Shown one piece after another: positions 6,162 to 13,087 of a stretch of 64,000 nucleotides of DNA. Origin of the DNA: Afifella marina DSM 2698. Lineage in GTDB: Bacteria; Pseudomonadota; Alphaproteobacteria; Rhizobiales; Afifellaceae. The notes beneath the pieces are model-generated. The model saw only the letters and a program-made list of their open reading frames with translations. It did no database searches and was not told where the DNA came from. The stretch lies in contig NZ_FMVW01000005.1 of assembly GCF_900102695.1 (NCBI RefSeq), positions 1-64,000 on the forward strand, read 5' to 3'. Position numbers and translations under genes: made by a program. The number at the start of each line of letters is the position of its first letter. Position 1 is the first letter of the stretch.

Positions 6162-6938
6162 ATGGTTCAGCTGACTCTTCCGAAAAACTCGACAGTTCAC
6201 CGCGGCAAGGTCTGGCCGAAGCCCGCGGGCAGCAAACACAAGGAGTTCCAGATCTATCGCTGGGATCCCGAAGACGGCCGCAACCCGCGTCTCGATACCT
6301 ATTATGTCGATACCGACGATTGCGGACCAATGGTTCTCGATGCCCTGTTGTGGATCAAGAACAAGGTCGACCCGACTTTGACGCTGCGCCGCTCCTGCCG
6401 GGAAGGCATTTGCGGCTCTTGTGCCATGAACATCGACGGATCGAATACACTCGCCTGCACGACGGGCTGGGGCGACATCAACGGTATCGTGAAGATCTAT
6501 CCTCTGCCGCATATGCCGGTGGTGAAGGATCTTGTGCCGGATCTGACGCATTTCTATGCGCAGCATGCGCTGATCGAGCCGTGGCTGCAGACGGTGTCGC
6601 CGACGCCCGAAAAGGAGCACCTGCAGAGCCACGAAGACCGTGAGAAGCTGGACGGGCTCTACGAGTGCATTCTCTGCGCCTGCTGCACGACGTCGTGCCC
6701 GAGCTATTGGTGGAACGGCGATCGGTATCTCGGCCCGGCCGCGCTTCTGCAGGCCTATCGGTGGATTGTCGATTCGCGTGACGAGCGCACCGGCGAGCGC
6801 CTCGACCAGCTGGAGGATCCGTTCCGGCTTTACCGCTGCCACACGATCCTCAATTGCGTGCAGGTCTGCCCGAAGGGGCTGAACCCGGCAAAGGCGATCG
6901 GCGAAATCAAGAAGATGATGGTCGAAAGGCGCGTCTGA
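6162..6938 (+). CDS. sdhB: succinate dehydrogenase iron-sulfur subunit
   Basis: A 258-residue SdhB, the electron-transferring subunit of complex II, which passes electrons from the flavoprotein SdhA to quinone at the inner membrane. The plant-ferredoxin-type [2Fe-2S] ligands are in [12 protein letters not shown], and the [4Fe-4S] and [3Fe-4S] ligands are in [16 protein letters not shown] and [17 protein letters not shown]. Length is normal. Unusually, sdhC, sdhD and sdhA are not next to it: the gene stands alone between a leftward ThDP-enzyme gene and a bidirectional terminator. It must therefore have its own promoter in 5997-6161. Confidence 0.97.
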
Positions 6939-7000
6939 GCGACACCGACCTCCTAGGAAAGACAGACATCGCGGCGTCAGGCGGCGATGTCTGAGACAAA

Positions 7001-7034
7001 AAAAGCCCCGCAGCGCGAAGCTGCGGGGCTTTTT
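7001..7034. terminator. bidirectional rho-independent terminator
   Basis: Arms AGCCCCGCAGC (7004-7014) and GCTGCGGGGCT (7020-7030), loop GCGAA, flanked by an A-run on the left and TTTTT on the right, so it can work on both strands. It separates the convergent ends of sdhB and the Trp-motif repeat gene. Confidence 0.9.
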
Positions 7035-7053: not shown

Positions 7054-9237
7054 CTAGATGATCGGCGATCCCTGCGGGAAGAGCCAGGTGCCGCCATCGG
7101 CCCACTGGCGCTCCGGCAGGCGGGCGCGGAACCACTTCACCATCGCGTAGTAGAAGCTTTCCTCGCTGCGAGCGGGCGTACGAGCCGCGATCGGAGCCTG
7201 GGCAGGCGTCTGCATCGGCCGCTGCGGCCGCACCTGGATCGGCCGGCCGGCCTGGCGCGGAACGCTCGGCACCGTGCGATAGACGCGCGCGCCATTCTGT
7301 GCGGTTGCCTGGGCCGTGTGCGCCGCGGGCTTCTTTTCTGCCGGACGGACACTCGGGAAGAGCCAGGACGACCCGTTCACGCGCGTCTGTGCGGCGCCGT
7401 TGGTCCGGGCCATCACCGTTGCGCGGCTTGCTGCCTGCTGCGGCTGTGCCTGGCGGGTCGCACGGATCGGTGCGCCGGCGTTCGAGCGGTAGAGATATCC
7501 CGCCGTCGCGACACCGTTCGTGGCACGAGCGGGCGCGGCCTGGCGACCATTGGCCTGCTGCTGGGCCGGCCGTTGCGCCGTCTCAGCCTGTGCACGCGGG
7601 TGCGTGCCCGGGAAGAGCCAGCTGCCGCCGTTTTGCGCCGTGCGGGCTGGCGCCCTCTCACGACTTGGTTGCGCGGCCGTGCGGAAGAGCCAGCTCGTCT
7701 GGCCGGCACCTGAAGTTTCAGCCGCTTTGGCGGGTTGCTGTTGGGCAGCCTTGCCGTTGGTTTGAGCCGGGGCACGCTGATGCGTGCCGGGGAACAGCCA
7801 GCTTCCGCCGGTCACAGCCGGCTGAGCCTGCTGTTTGGCCGGCTGCTGCGCGCCGTTCTGTTTCTGTGCGCCGTTCTCAGCCGCAGCGTTGCGGAAAAGC
7901 CAGCTTCTCTGCGGCGTAGCATTGGCGGCCTGCGGTTGCGCTTGCTGCTCGGCCTCGACGGCCTGGCCGCGCCCGTTCGGGAAGAGCCAGCTGCGCTGAA
8001 CCACCTGCGGGGCGGGTTTTGCAGCCTCGGCCTTATCGTTCGTGCGTGCTGCGCCATTCTGGGGCGCGCCGTTGCGGTAGAGCCAGCTCGCCTGCGGGGC
8101 GCCCGTCTGCCGTGCGGGTTCGGCCTTTTGGCTCGATGCCTGCTGCTGAGGCGCGGAATTTCGATAAAGCCAGCTCACCGGTGCCTGCGGCTTCTCCGGC
8201 TCGGGCTTTGCATCTTCCTTCGCCTTGGAGCCGCCGGTGAACCAGCTGCTGATCGTCTCGAAGGGCGAGCCGAACGACGATGCTTCCGCTTTGCCTTTTT
8301 CCTTGGCTTCGGAGGCGAGACGATAAACCCAGCTCATCACTTCGGCCGAGGTCGACTGCTCGGGCTCTTCGCTCTCCTGCGGCGCAGGCTTGCGATAGAA
8401 CCAGCCTTGATGGGTCGACACCGCGGTGTCCTTGAGCGCCGCCTTGCCGTTTGCGTGGCCGTTTGCTTTGCCGTTCGACTGTGCGGCAGGCTTAAAGAAC
8501 AGCCAGCTCGACGGGGCCTCGGCGGGCGCAGCCTGCGGAGCGGAGGTCGCCGTGCCGTTTGTCTGCGGCGCGGCGGGCTTACGGTAAAGCCAGCTCGGAG
8601 AGGTTTGTTCTCGAGCCGGTGGTGCGGCTTTCGCCGCGGCGGCGGGACTCTGGGCAGGCGCAGTCCGCGCCTGTGGGAAGAGCCAACTGCCACCGTTGTT
8701 TGGCGCTCGGGCCGGCTGGCCGCGCGCGCCATTCACCGGTTGGGTGGCGGGCATCATGTTCCTCGTGTTGATAGGCTGAGAGGCTGAGCGGTTCGCGGAC
8801 GGGCGAAAGGGGGGATTGCCCCCGTAGGCCGACCTTGGGGTGGGCGCCTGCGATTGACGGGCCGGGCGCGCGGCCGAAACTTGATTGTGATGCGAAGATG
8901 CTGCGGGAGCGGGGCGCGTCATGCGCGGCCGAAGCCAACTCGCCTGCTGTTCGTCGGCGCGACGATCGCCGCGCGAAATGTCGGGGGTTTGAATGTCGCG
9001 TGCCGTGGGCGCGGCCGCTGCCGGGCCGGAGGCTGACAATCGGGGGGGCGCCGGATGGGATGCGACAGTGCCATCCGGGCGAGCGGCCGAGCCGTCCTCC
9101 CGATCGAGACGGCTTGCCAAGTTCCGACGAAAGAGATCCGCGATCTCCCGCATCGGCTCCTGCAGCCGTTTGGCGACCATGTCCTCCATCGAGAGACCCT
9201 GCCTTATCGCGATCGTCATCATGTCGAAGAAACGCAA
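7054..9237 (-). CDS. repeat protein with ~16 SWLF/SWLYR motifs in disordered linkers (unknown)
   Basis: A 727-residue protein I do not recognise. Residues 1-45 form a possible amphipathic helix without a signal peptide. The rest is low-complexity Ala/Gln/Pro/Asn, punctuated by a short aromatic motif of the form S-W-L-[FY]-[PR]. Its Trp lies at about residues 101, 185, 216, 245, 279, 303, 332, 356, 385, 417, 446, 480, 516, 540, 625 and 718, with a Tyr variant at 581. Spacing is mostly 24-36 residues and linkers are not conserved. Two motif flavours alternate: GGSWLFPGT-like and SWLYRNxAPQ-like. The protein ends GGTWLFPQGSPII, so the motif also caps the C-terminus. The frame starts with TTG; ATG codons at residues 6, 7, 17 and 20 are alternatives. 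The pattern suggests multivalent short linear motifs binding a partner, or a scaffold or condensate protein, but no function is shown. Confidence 0.75.
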   Translation of the reverse strand: MRFFDMMTIAIRQGLSMEDMVAKRLQEPMREIADLFRRNLASRLDREDGSAARPDGTVASHPAPPRLSASGPAAAAPTARDIQTPDISRGDRRADEQQASWLRPRMTRPAPAASSHHNQVSAARPARQSQAPTPRSAYGGNPPFRPSANRSASQPINTRNMMPATQPVNGARGQPARAPNNGGSWLFPQARTAPAQSPAAAAKAAPPAREQTSPSWLYRKPAAPQTNGTATSAPQAAPAEAPSSWLFFKPAAQSNGKANGHANGKAALKDTAVSTHQGWFYRKPAPQESEEPEQSTSAEVMSWVYRLASEAKEKGKAEASSFGSPFETISSWFTGGSKAKEDAKPEPEKPQAPVSWLYRNSAPQQQASSQKAEPARQTGAPQASWLYRNGAPQNGAARTNDKAEAAKPAPQVVQRSWLFPNGRGQAVEAEQQAQPQAANATPQRSWLFRNAAAENGAQKQNGAQQPAKQQAQPAVTGGSWLFPGTHQRAPAQTNGKAAQQQPAKAAETSGAGQTSWLFRTAAQPSRERAPARTAQNGGSWLFPGTHPRAQAETAQRPAQQQANGRQAAPARATNGVATAGYLYRSNAGAPIRATRQAQPQQAASRATVMARTNGAAQTRVNGSSWLFPSVRPAEKKPAAHTAQATAQNGARVYRTVPSVPRQAGRPIQVRPQRPMQTPAQAPIAARTPARSEESFYYAMVKWFRARLPERQWADGGTWLFPQGSPII

Positions 9238-10036
9238 CAGGAGTGCAGCCGAACGAAATCTGGCCCAATTCGGCCAAGTTCGTCGATTGCAAGAGGGATT
9301 CTACAACGATTCACGCCTTTTCTCCAGAAGGGGTTCTGCTCGAAACGGTCGCGGCGGCGAATTGAGTCGGAGCCGCGGGTCCTGCGCGCTGCTGGAAACG
9401 CGGCTGAGCGCGCCTTCTCCCCGTTCTGTCCGCGCGCTTGTGCCGCTGCGCAGCGATACGCGGCGCTCAGCGGTGCATGCACAAGGACAAACGGTGCGGG
9501 CATTCAAGTTTCCCTTCGAAAGCACGCCTGGAAACGTGGCTTTTCAATCCACTGACACCGGCGAGTCTAACCTGTCAAGAATCCTCCAGACAGGTTTCGC
9601 ACTCTACTGACTCTCGATCATGTCAGCGAATATTTCTTAATGAATAATTAACGCTAGTAATAATGGAAGTATTAACCAATTTGAACGCCGTGGGGCAGAG
9701 TCATCATAGACCTGCCTACAGAGGAGTCGGTTCCGCCGCGAACAAGTTGTGGTCGGTCGCGGGAGCACGGATCAGGCGAAAAGCGGTCGCGCCATACCTG
9801 CTATCGAGGCTGCCGATTTTGCCAGTTCCGCACGACCAAGAGAGGCGTCGGCGGCGATTTTTCAGCGTGAAAGCCTGCAAAACCGCGCGAATTGATTCGC
9901 TTTCTGCGCCAAAAGGCGGATGAGCCCCGTACAGAGACGTGTCCCAGAGAGGCGATCGCGACGTTCCTGCGCCGCTGACGCCGCTCTGCAGAGCGCCTCC
10001 TCGCGAAGACACAGCTTATGAAAGAAAGCGCCCGCA
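9238..10036. other. 799-bp intergenic region without a convincing gene
   Basis: Only short overlapping open frames with no recognisable protein are present. A locally AT-rich patch lies at about 9620-9680. On the minus strand CTTGAC (complement of 9573-9578) could be a -35 element for the repeat-protein gene, but no good -10 follows. This could hold the leader and promoter of the repeat-protein gene or an unrecognised small RNA. Confidence 0.4.
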
Positions 10037-10426
10037 ATGATCGACCATCTCGGCATCGCCGCAAGGGATTACACAGCCTCCCGGCTCTTCTATGAAAGAG
10101 CTTTGGCGCCGCTGGGCATGCAGGTGATCATGGCTGTCGGCAAGGAGGAAACGGGCGGATACGAAGGCGCAGGCTTCGGCGCCAACGGAAAACCCTGCTT
10201 CTGGGTCCAATCCATGCCGGACGGCAAAGTCTCGGGGGTTCATGTCGCCTTTGCCGCGCCCGACAGGGCTGCGGTCGACGCCTTTTACAACGCAGCCCTC
10301 AGAGCCGGCGGTCGTGACAATGGCGCGCCGGGGCTGCGGCCACACTATCATCCGAATTACTACGGCGCCTTTGTCCTCGACCCCGACGGCAACAATATCG
10401 AGGCCGTCTGTCACCGGCCCGAATGA
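10037..10426 (+). CDS. VOC family (glyoxalase/bleomycin-resistance fold) protein
   Basis: A 129-residue single-domain VOC protein. The fold's first metal-ligand position is in MIDHLGIAARDY (His4), a central HVAFAAPD strand gives a second candidate, and the terminal DPDGNNIEAVCH carries the conserved Glu. Such proteins act as dioxygenases, isomerases or resistance proteins, and sequence alone does not tell which. It is flanked by the long gene-free region and by the convergent msrB, so it appears monocistronic. Confidence 0.88.
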   Translation: MIDHLGIAARDYTASRLFYERALAPLGMQVIMAVGKEETGGYEGAGFGANGKPCFWVQSMPDGKVSGVHVAFAAPDRAAVDAFYNAALRAGGRDNGAPGLRPHYHPNYYGAFVLDPDGNNIEAVCHRPE

Positions 10427-10487: not shown

Positions 10488-11006
10488 TCAGCCCAGAACC
10501 GGCTCGCCGCCGCCGGCCGGCTTGAAGACGAGCGCGACACCGTTGATGCAGTGACGTTTGCCGGTCGGCTTGGGTCCATCGTTGAAGATGTGACCGAGAT
10601 GCCCGCCGCAATTGGCGCAATGCACTTCGGTGCGCGGATAGATGAGCTTGAAGTCGCGCGAGGTCGCGACGGCGGCGGGCGCTATCGCCTCATAGAAGCT
10701 CGGCCAGCCGGTGCCGGAATCGAACTTGGCCTTCGAACTGTAGACGGCGTTGTCGCAGCCGGCGCAGTGGAAGACACCCTGGCGATGTTCGTCATTGAGG
10801 GGCGAGGTGAAGGCGCGCTCGGTCCCTTCGTCGCGCAGCACCGAAAACTGCCCGTCGGTGAGCTTCTTCTTCCATTCGTCCCGGCTCAGCGTCACCGGAA
10901 AGTCGCCGGTGGATTCGGCACCCGCCCGGTGCGGCAAGAAAACTCCGAGCCCTGTCAGCGCGGCCACGGCCGCGCTTCCGGCAAACAGACTGCGTCGTGA
11001 GAGCAT
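10488..11006 (-). CDS. msrB: exported peptide-methionine (R)-S-oxide reductase
   Basis: A 172-residue MsrB, which reduces methionine-R-sulfoxide in proteins. The catalytic cysteine is in RHCINGVALVF, and the structural zinc site is formed by CAGC (in CAGCDNAVY) and CANC (in CANCGGHLGH). Unlike cytoplasmic MsrB, it starts with MLSRRSLFAGSAAVAALTGL, a twin-arginine-like signal, followed by a cleavage site near HRAGA, so it should act in the periplasm. Its electron source there is unknown; the CcdA gene at 53.4-54.2 kb is a possible upstream donor system, which is inference. It is convergent with the VOC gene. Confidence 0.93.
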   Translation of the reverse strand: MLSRRSLFAGSAAVAALTGLGVFLPHRAGAESTGDFPVTLSRDEWKKKLTDGQFSVLRDEGTERAFTSPLNDEHRQGVFHCAGCDNAVYSSKAKFDSGTGWPSFYEAIAPAAVATSRDFKLIYPRTEVHCANCGGHLGHIFNDGPKPTGKRHCINGVALVFKPAGGGEPVLG

Positions 11007-12514: not shown

Positions 12515-13087
12515 ATGTCGCATTCCTGGCGCGCGATCGCCGCAACCTCCGCGCTTGCAGCCTCCCTCGCCGCCTGCCAGTCCGCTTATTTCGGTGGCCA
12601 AAGCAGCAATCGTTATTCTCCTCCGCCGCCGCCACGGCCGCTCGCGGCAGCGCCGGTCGGAACCGTTTCGCAGAGCGAGCTGCCGCCTCCGGGCGGGGCG
12701 AACGCCGCTAACGATCCGATGATGGGCGAACCGCCGGATCTGCGTCCGGGCTCCGACGGCGGCGTGCAGACGGCGACGGCCACGCCTCCGCCTTCGGGCG
12801 GCGCCGCTATCGGTCGCGCCGATCTTCTCGGCGGCTGGACTGTGTCCTCCGGCGGTGACAGCTGTCAGCTCTTCATGTCTTTGACCAGCTGGTCGGGCGG
12901 CTATCGGGCCTCGACGCGTGGCTGCACATCGCCGGCGCTTCAGAACGTCTCCGCCTGGAACCTCTCCGGCAATCAGGTCACGCTGCTTGACCAGGGCAGC
13001 AGCACTGTCGCTCGCCTCTATTCGACCTCCAAGACCCAGTTCAATGGTCAAACAGAGGCAGGTGCCGCAATTTCAGTCGCCCGTTAG
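12515..13087 (+). CDS. Inh/AprI-domain lipoprotein (Omp19-like)
   Basis: A 190-residue lipoprotein: the signal ends in the lipobox LAAC at residues 18-21, giving an acylated Cys. A Pro-rich linker (residues ~30-85) leads to a C-terminal domain of the AprI/Inh metalloprotease-inhibitor type (LLGGWTVSSGGDSCQLFMSL, a Cys pair with RGCTSPAL). This is the plan of Brucella Omp19, an outer-membrane lipoprotein that inhibits proteases. Target proteases are not encoded in the window. The downstream gap to the next gene is about 190 bp, so it may be monocistronic. Confidence 0.85.
   Translation: MSHSWRAIAATSALAASLAACQSAYFGGQSSNRYSPPPPPRPLAAAPVGTVSQSELPPPGGANAANDPMMGEPPDLRPGSDGGVQTATATPPPSGGAAIGRADLLGGWTVSSGGDSCQLFMSLTSWSGGYRASTRGCTSPALQNVSAWNLSGNQVTLLDQGSSTVARLYSTSKTQFNGQTEAGAAISVAR

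Follow-up and report, generated by a model that had tools for sequence, protein, structure and literature searches.

A tryptophan-motif array in a probably disordered Afifella protein: a candidate multivalent scaffold with cell-cycle-type promoter sites

The locus and its reading frame

We analysed a stretch of 64,000 nucleotides from the purple bacterium Afifella marina DSM 2698 (contig NZ_FMVW01000005.1, positions 1 to 64,000), here called the window. It contains a gene whose product carries many copies of a short tryptophan motif. The features of this gene and its product are the following.

7054 to 9222, minus strand: coding sequence of the multi-motif protein, from ATG 9222 or 9219 (TTG 9237 in the initial annotation; ATG 9189 possible)
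7000 to 7034, no strand assigned: terminator-like hairpin with a 15-pair stem, between the convergent sdhB-like gene and the multi-motif gene
7078 to 7089, minus strand: last motif, TWLF, seven residues from the C-terminus (motif coordinates)
7120 to 7164, minus strand: predicted C-terminal helix, residues 686-700, in the three close species only (AlphaFold2; conservation of the last 60 codons)
7357 to 8688, minus strand: disordered tail with 14 of the 15 [SGTA][WY][LVIF][FY] motifs (motif coordinates; pLDDT mostly below 50)
9085 to 9189, minus strand: predicted N-terminal helix, residues 11-45 counted from ATG 9219, a remnant of the later part of DUF4760 (AlphaFold2; alignment to the long homologues)

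The minus-strand frame at 7054-9237 is open for 727 codons from the TTG at 9237 and ends with the stop codon TAG at 7054-7056. Besides this TTG, in-frame ATG codons at 9222, 9219 and 9189 are candidate starts. Residue numbers and motif counts of the window protein are taken from ATG 9219, which gives 721 aa. Among the window species and its two closest relatives (G003 and G001) nucleotide identity is 100% at 9200-9229 and 97% at 9170-9199. A start codon within 9170-9229 would fit this high identity, none of the candidates being proven.

Changes between the three close species fall mainly at the third codon position (66/38/140, 59/33/104 and 67/40/123 by position in the three pairs) and therefore the frame is coding. 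The initial annotation had described an unclassified protein of 727 residues here and had named a random codon-position pattern as an outcome that would speak against it. The substitutions display third-position bias instead and, together with a dN/dS of 0.22-0.27, this identifies the frame as a real gene.

The multi-motif gene lies tail to tail with a plus-strand gene at 6162-6938, which we take to be sdhB from inspection by eye. Terminator-like sites numbered six in the scanned stretch against a shuffle mean of 4.2, and the hairpin between the two genes has the longest stem. On the other side lies a plus-strand gene at 10037-10426, presumably glyoxalase-like as judged by eye, followed by a SelR/MsrB gene at 10488-11006 on the minus strand. 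In G002 (L054) the glyoxalase-like gene is missing from its place between msrB and the multi-motif gene, which there adjoins an msrB-like frame (by eye). Farther along, the protein encoded at 12515-13087 contains an Inh (protease inhibitor) domain, PF02974.

The motif array and the predicted disorder

The window protein contains 15 matches to [SGTA][WY][LVIF][FY], 14 of them with W, whereas 2000 residue shuffles of the same protein gave 0.05 motifs on average and two at most. Most of its tryptophans (14 of 18) stand within motifs; moreover, SWLR at Trp 95 and SWFT at Trp 326 resemble degenerate copies. Spacing is 24-53 residues along the array and then 93 before the last copy. The five homologues hold 15, 15, 14, 18 and 18 copies, where shuffling gave means of 0.03-0.09. 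Their consensus is mostly S-W-L-F/Y-[R/P], with 14-18 copies per chain that are usually 24-40 residues apart. The tail is rich in Ala, Pro, Gln, Ser and Gly, and carries a net charge of +45 in all five species but one, where it is +62. The initial annotation had proposed about 16 SWLF and SWLYR motifs of two alternating types. The array itself stands far above chance, but the P and R types alternate strictly only in the second half of the window protein. In the long homologues the R type prevails (13 of 18 and 12 of 18 motifs).

A second motif-array protein was not found in the same genome with one degenerate DNA pattern for a motif followed by P or R, which takes in only some codon and residue choices. 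The pattern matched 22 times genome-wide, 11 times in the multi-motif gene and 11 times as single matches elsewhere, compared with 21 matches of the reversed control.

AlphaFold2, run on a two-row alignment, gave the window protein a mean pLDDT of 39.5, with 634 of 721 residues below 50, and predicted helices at residues 11-45 and 686-700 only. The disorder that had been expected for the linkers is borne out by the prediction. A helix within residues 1-45 had likewise been proposed. It is predicted at 11-45, its amphipathicity is marginal (hydrophobic moment equalled by 5% of shuffles) and its origin has to be corrected, as described below. For the C-terminal helix no counterpart was found in the two long homologues in the alignment of five proteins. 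An amphipathic C-terminal helix as substitute for a lost membrane anchor was considered and found no support, since 63-90% of shuffles equal its hydrophobic moment.

Searches with the window protein in Pfam and NCBIfam (E up to 10) and among PDB sequences (E up to 1) were empty, and membership in a known family was rejected on these grounds. The earlier statement that the protein has no known domain is right for the window protein itself, but its long homologues carry DUF4760. Nothing relevant to the SWLF motif or to disordered Trp-repeat scaffolds appeared among the papers listed by literature searches, which were judged partly by title. Several copies of one short motif, above chance and in a chain predicted to be disordered, are what a scaffold would be expected to have.

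Selection acts on the motifs more than on the linkers

We estimated dN/dS from Nei-Gojobori counts for the three pairs of the three close species, from the ATG onwards. At a dS of 0.25-0.32, overall dN/dS was 0.22, 0.24 and 0.27. It was 0.026, 0.041 and 0 in the motif columns compared with 0.24, 0.26 and 0.29 in the linkers, with only 0-1 non-synonymous changes inside the motif per species pair. Non-synonymous change was rarer in motifs than in linkers at Fisher p values of 4e-4, 2e-3 and 1e-5 for pairs that share sequences and are not independent. The last 60 codons are also well conserved (dN/dS of 0.06-0.09), and the first 45 codons gave 0.31, 0.22 and 0.73 on few changes.

Similarly, identity between the two long proteins is 76% in the motif columns, 51% in the linkers and 69% in the N-terminal 170 residues. 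Four of the 18 motif copies are gapped or unmatched in this comparison. Therefore, the kind of motif and its rough number are held while single copies turn over. The initial annotation had suggested that selection acts on the motif while linkers differ, and the contrast in dN/dS supports it. Selection on the motif that exceeds selection on the linkers is, in these alignments, the pattern that a scaffold would leave.

A different way to read the same array is that the aromatic stickers bind each other instead of a receptor and that the basic chain undergoes phase separation, by itself or together with RNA or DNA. Spaced aromatic-plus-Arg stickers in a chain of this composition and positive charge are consistent with such a homotypic condensate, as is the motif pattern elsewhere in the genome, which is isolated and at control level. 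However, the fixed S-W-L-F/Y order is probably tighter than aromatic stickers would need. We consider self-association unlikely as the main explanation. The near absence of replacements in the fixed core speaks rather for binding in a specific pocket of a partner protein.

Homologues and the long form

A search for homologues had been proposed as a check on the protein, and they were found in all five Afifella genomes examined. In a protein search that covered the window's own genome and 40 relatives, four of the 41 genomes had the gene. The search with a longer homologue in 11 genomes of the family found it in 5/5 Afifella and 0/6 others; Afifella is placed in Hyphomicrobiales, Afifellaceae. 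A profile of the five proteins was run against 397 genomes of the order and 385 of the class, both even draws from larger groups, with at most two candidates scored per genome. Six genomes matched in the order, namely the five Afifella and one with a DUF4760-only protein (G146, 171-aa frame). Three matched in the class, namely the window's genome and two with DUF4760-only proteins (163- and 177-aa frames). In these samples the profile thus detected the tail only in Afifella. Sampled profile searches of this kind leave room for a rare or distant homologue beyond the genus. A three-motif DNA pattern matched 4/397 genomes of the order, all Afifella, while its control had 0 matches. The array is present in G002, the fifth Afifella, yet its motifs and spacing do not fit this pattern. 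Single-protein scans of a named genome collection, from which near relatives of the window may be left out, matched only Afifella sp. IM 167. A phage or plasmid origin was rejected after a search with the long homologue P0002, which matched none of 50,697 phage and 72,556 plasmid records.

Two of the five species encode a long form of 991 residues (G004) and 1014 residues (G002). It consists of a transmembrane helix, DUF4760 and a tail with 18 motifs, with six residues after the last motif. In G004 the hydrophobic helix reaches a 19-residue hydropathy of 2.56 from residue 6, and the N-terminus of the long form had a mean pLDDT of 64.9 in a single-sequence prediction. DUF4760 (PF15956) was matched in the long homologues P0002 and P0004 with 30.4 and 28.4 bits at a curated cut-off of 25. 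The window protein gave 0 matches to this model (E up to 10), so that it is homologous to DUF4760 proteins and not a member by the Pfam test. The window species, G003 and G001 have a common in-frame TAG within the DUF4760-homologous part, and the transmembrane helix is absent.

9301 to 9303, minus strand: in-frame TAG common to the three close species, inside the DUF4760-homologous stretch (tblastn, protein and profile searches)
9304 to 9348, minus strand: remains of the DUF4760 coding sequence, upstream of the TAG (protein search; tblastn with the G004 N-terminus)

Since the TAG interrupts the DUF4760-homologous frame, the N-terminal helix of the window protein corresponds to the later part of DUF4760. 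The long form is probably ancestral, as DUF4760 proteins occur elsewhere in the order and the sequence left upstream of the TAG still matches the long form. The TAG is common to three species and therefore selection on the tail most likely acted after the truncation. Read-through of the stop codon to restore the long form in the three species was rejected: in the 350 nt upstream of the TAG the best 19-residue hydropathy in the three minus-strand frames was 1.10, 1.19 and 1.37, which is no transmembrane helix compared with 2.56 in the long form. A 94-aa frame at window 9219-9503 on the minus strand, in another frame, overlaps the start of the gene. It is mildly hydrophobic at its start and its ATG lies about where the long-form start would lie, so that it is perhaps a frameshifted relic of the lost N-terminus.

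Of 249 genomes searched in the order, 21 had a DUF4760 match. Apart from the two Afifella long forms and one open frame of 647 aa without motifs, the open frames have 150-276 aa. The 647-aa frame (G020) was rejected as a second case of DUF4760 with a tail, because the domain lies near its end and there is no motif array. A second DUF4760 match with frames of 271-276 aa was noted in three Afifella genomes (G001:C2:973189-973434, G002:C10:70350-70901 and G004:C6:100542-100802). In the same scan none was listed for the window's genome or G003. In the literature searched, DUF4760 was named in a single paper, and there in a table only.

A stop codon in DUF4760 may also be taken as the mark of a pseudogene, with the similarity of the tails due to the closeness of the three species. 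The loss of the transmembrane part along with the common TAG fits a decaying gene, as does the dN/dS of 1.95, 0.42 and 0.62 in the 26 codons between TAG and ATG, on few changes. However, the tail has stayed open for about 700 codons past the TAG at the divergence given above, and its motifs are nearly invariant. Moreover, the promoter block is kept and the long form is uninterrupted in two other species. Decay is already disfavoured by the overall dN/dS from the ATG onwards, which does not look like relaxed selection, and we regard it as scarcely probable.

The gene might instead encode a low-complexity or surface protein without a particular scaffold function. Its Ala/Pro/Gln-rich composition and its presence in one genus only, in the samples searched, would agree with this. 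On the other hand, the short form has no hydrophobic signal-like stretch (best 19-residue hydropathy of 0.25-0.42 in the three species). In the long form, basic residues directly follow the transmembrane helix, which suggests, by the positive-inside rule applied by eye, a tail in the cytoplasm. As selection is in addition concentrated on the motifs, we judge this explanation very unlikely.

Another reading is that of a multivalent membrane tether, in which the W-L-F/Y-R motifs dip into the lipid interface so that the chain adheres to or bridges membranes such as photosynthetic lamellae. An aromatic plus Arg motif and the transmembrane anchor of the long form speak for it, and photosynthetic reaction-centre genes are present in 5/5 genomes with the multi-motif gene. 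For A. marina and A. pfennigii one study describes lamellar photosynthetic membranes that occupy restricted zones along the length of the cell (PMC6030561). However, G007 and G010 of the same family have reaction centres and no multi-motif gene, and 22-43% of the motifs are followed by P instead of R. The same study reports restricted lamellae also for Rhodoplanes and Rhodopseudomonas (PMC6030561), while the array occurs in 0 non-Afifella genomes of the 397, which may or may not include these genera. We find a tether of this kind distinctly unlikely.

Promoter and CtrA-type boxes

The region upstream of the gene contains the following features.

9500 to 9679, minus strand: conserved non-coding block, probably promoter and leader (90-100% identity per 30 bp in three species)
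9637 to 9651, no strand assigned: CtrA-type box TTAA-N7-TTAA, the sole exact one in the window, with a counterpart before the gene in 5/5 species
9609 to 9613, no strand assigned: GANTC (CcrM-type) site, aligned in all five species
9579 to 9583, no strand assigned: GANTC site, aligned in all five species; it lies inside AGGATTCTTGACA as read on the minus strand
9698 to 9702, no strand assigned: GANTC site, aligned in all five species

Identity among the three close species drops to 57-87% in the bins that flank the block. The block keeps its identity though the adjoining gene has a dS of about 0.3. An RNA element in the block was considered and rejected, as no Rfam family matched over its gathering score. 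AGGATTCTTGACA is common to all five species and is followed by GGTGTC at constant spacing.

The CtrA consensus described for a stalked budding bacterium is TTAA-N7-TTAAC (PMC7200025). An exact TTAA-N7-TTAA stands upstream of the gene in all five Afifella species, with three different N7 sequences. In the window one exact box was found where dinucleotide shuffles give 0.04. In the two long-form species the box lies 151-152 nt before the ATG and a second box with one mismatch lies 21 nt further on. A box conserved in this way among species is what control by CtrA would predict.

GANTC is described as the target of CcrM (PMC3973325). Three upstream sites are aligned in 5/5 species and five in the three close ones, compared with 0.38 expected per 255 bp from the density of the window. 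The same source gives GANTC as more than 1.5-fold over-represented in the intergenic DNA of these bacteria (PMC3973325) and the excess in the promoter is therefore smaller than it appears. The extended GcrA motif is given as YGAKTCK (PMC7987155). None of the three five-species sites fits it on either strand, and one three-species site (window 9563-9567) fits on the other strand. GcrA is encoded in the window's genome. GANTC sites conserved among species would be in line with control by CcrM or GcrA.

Genome-wide, 13 exact TTAA-N7-TTAA sites were found, and the reversed control pattern also gave 13, so that the box count by itself proves nothing. Gene starts beside the boxes were set by script at the first ATG or GTG. 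Single boxes stand 52 nt before a gene for a penicillin-binding protein (PBP), 55 nt before ftsK and 60 nt before ftsE. Another lies 30 nt upstream of the earliest start that the gene of an outer-membrane protein could use, and a further one 237 nt before cheZ. The remaining exact boxes are near genes for NusG, a dehydrogenase and uroporphyrinogen decarboxylase or near frames without a Pfam match, the frames of L108 and L109 having been left out of the Pfam scan. At G000:C9:116314-116339 (L100 and L101) two exact boxes 11 nt apart overlap, 54-65 nt before a 143-aa frame that had no Pfam match at E 1e-4. Taken from the sites themselves, the promoter suggests that the protein is made in step with division and envelope growth.

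Proposed function

The reading that we prefer is that of a cell-cycle-timed, genus-specific multivalent scaffold whose Trp motifs bind a putative partner. We hold it tentatively, at just short of an even chance; the binding of a partner, clustering, location and timing are what we infer from the sequence. A long, basic and disordered chain would display the 14-18 stickers as weak, almost identical binding sites, each of which would be held by a pocket on the putative partner protein. One chain could thereby gather many partner molecules, which may result in a cluster or condensate. In the long form the chain would lie in the cytoplasm, hung from the transmembrane helix and DUF4760, so that clusters would form at the inner membrane. 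The window species would have lost the anchor and kept the tail, with a short N-terminal helix and the conserved C-terminal helix. Three species lack membrane attachment, and what is selected can thus do without it. CtrA and CcrM methylation, perhaps also GcrA, would switch expression of the gene together with that of division and envelope genes. The initial annotation had likened the protein to scaffold or condensate proteins. The plan agrees with the motif array, the selection on motifs and the predicted disorder; scaffold or condensate action itself remains a candidate.

A more specific version would make the protein a factor that places photosynthetic membranes. A condensate of Trp stickers, timed by CtrA and CcrM, would gather or hold the lamellar membranes in their restricted zones. 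Two members of the family have reaction centres but lack the gene; this version therefore stays a bold guess, which we think highly improbable.

If the scaffold reading is true, a motif-array scaffold arose within a single bacterial genus and was connected to its cell-cycle circuit. With three species lacking the anchor and two having it, the genus would then offer a natural experiment on how a multivalent tail acts when it is attached to the membrane and when it is not. As the motif is clear, a partner can be searched for directly, with a synthetic SWLYR/SWLFP peptide as the obvious bait. Besides, DUF4760 would gain a possible cell-cycle context.

Comparison with known systems

The polarity scaffolds PopZ, PodJ, SpmX and TipN of Alphaproteobacteria have disordered parts, are in some cases membrane-anchored and are under cell-cycle control. 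To our knowledge, a repeated Trp motif is not known in them, and the multi-motif gene differs from these scaffolds in its presence in one genus only in the samples searched. The FG-nucleoporins bind folded partners through numerous short aromatic motifs set in disordered linkers. The Afifella protein differs in being bacterial and in its Trp-based motif, and has no known relation to them.

EPYC1 and CsoS2 are multivalent linker or scaffold proteins with a disordered chain and spaced short motifs, in which the motif is kept and the linkers are free. The multi-motif protein shares this plan and differs in motif and neighbourhood, and its partner is only putative. With DUF4760 proteins the two long Afifella homologues share a domain match over the cut-off and an N-terminal hydrophobic helix, whereas the window protein retains only the later part of the domain. 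As judged from its sequence, the multi-motif protein has the build of a multivalent scaffold, belongs to no family in the libraries searched and is a relative of the DUF4760 membrane proteins.
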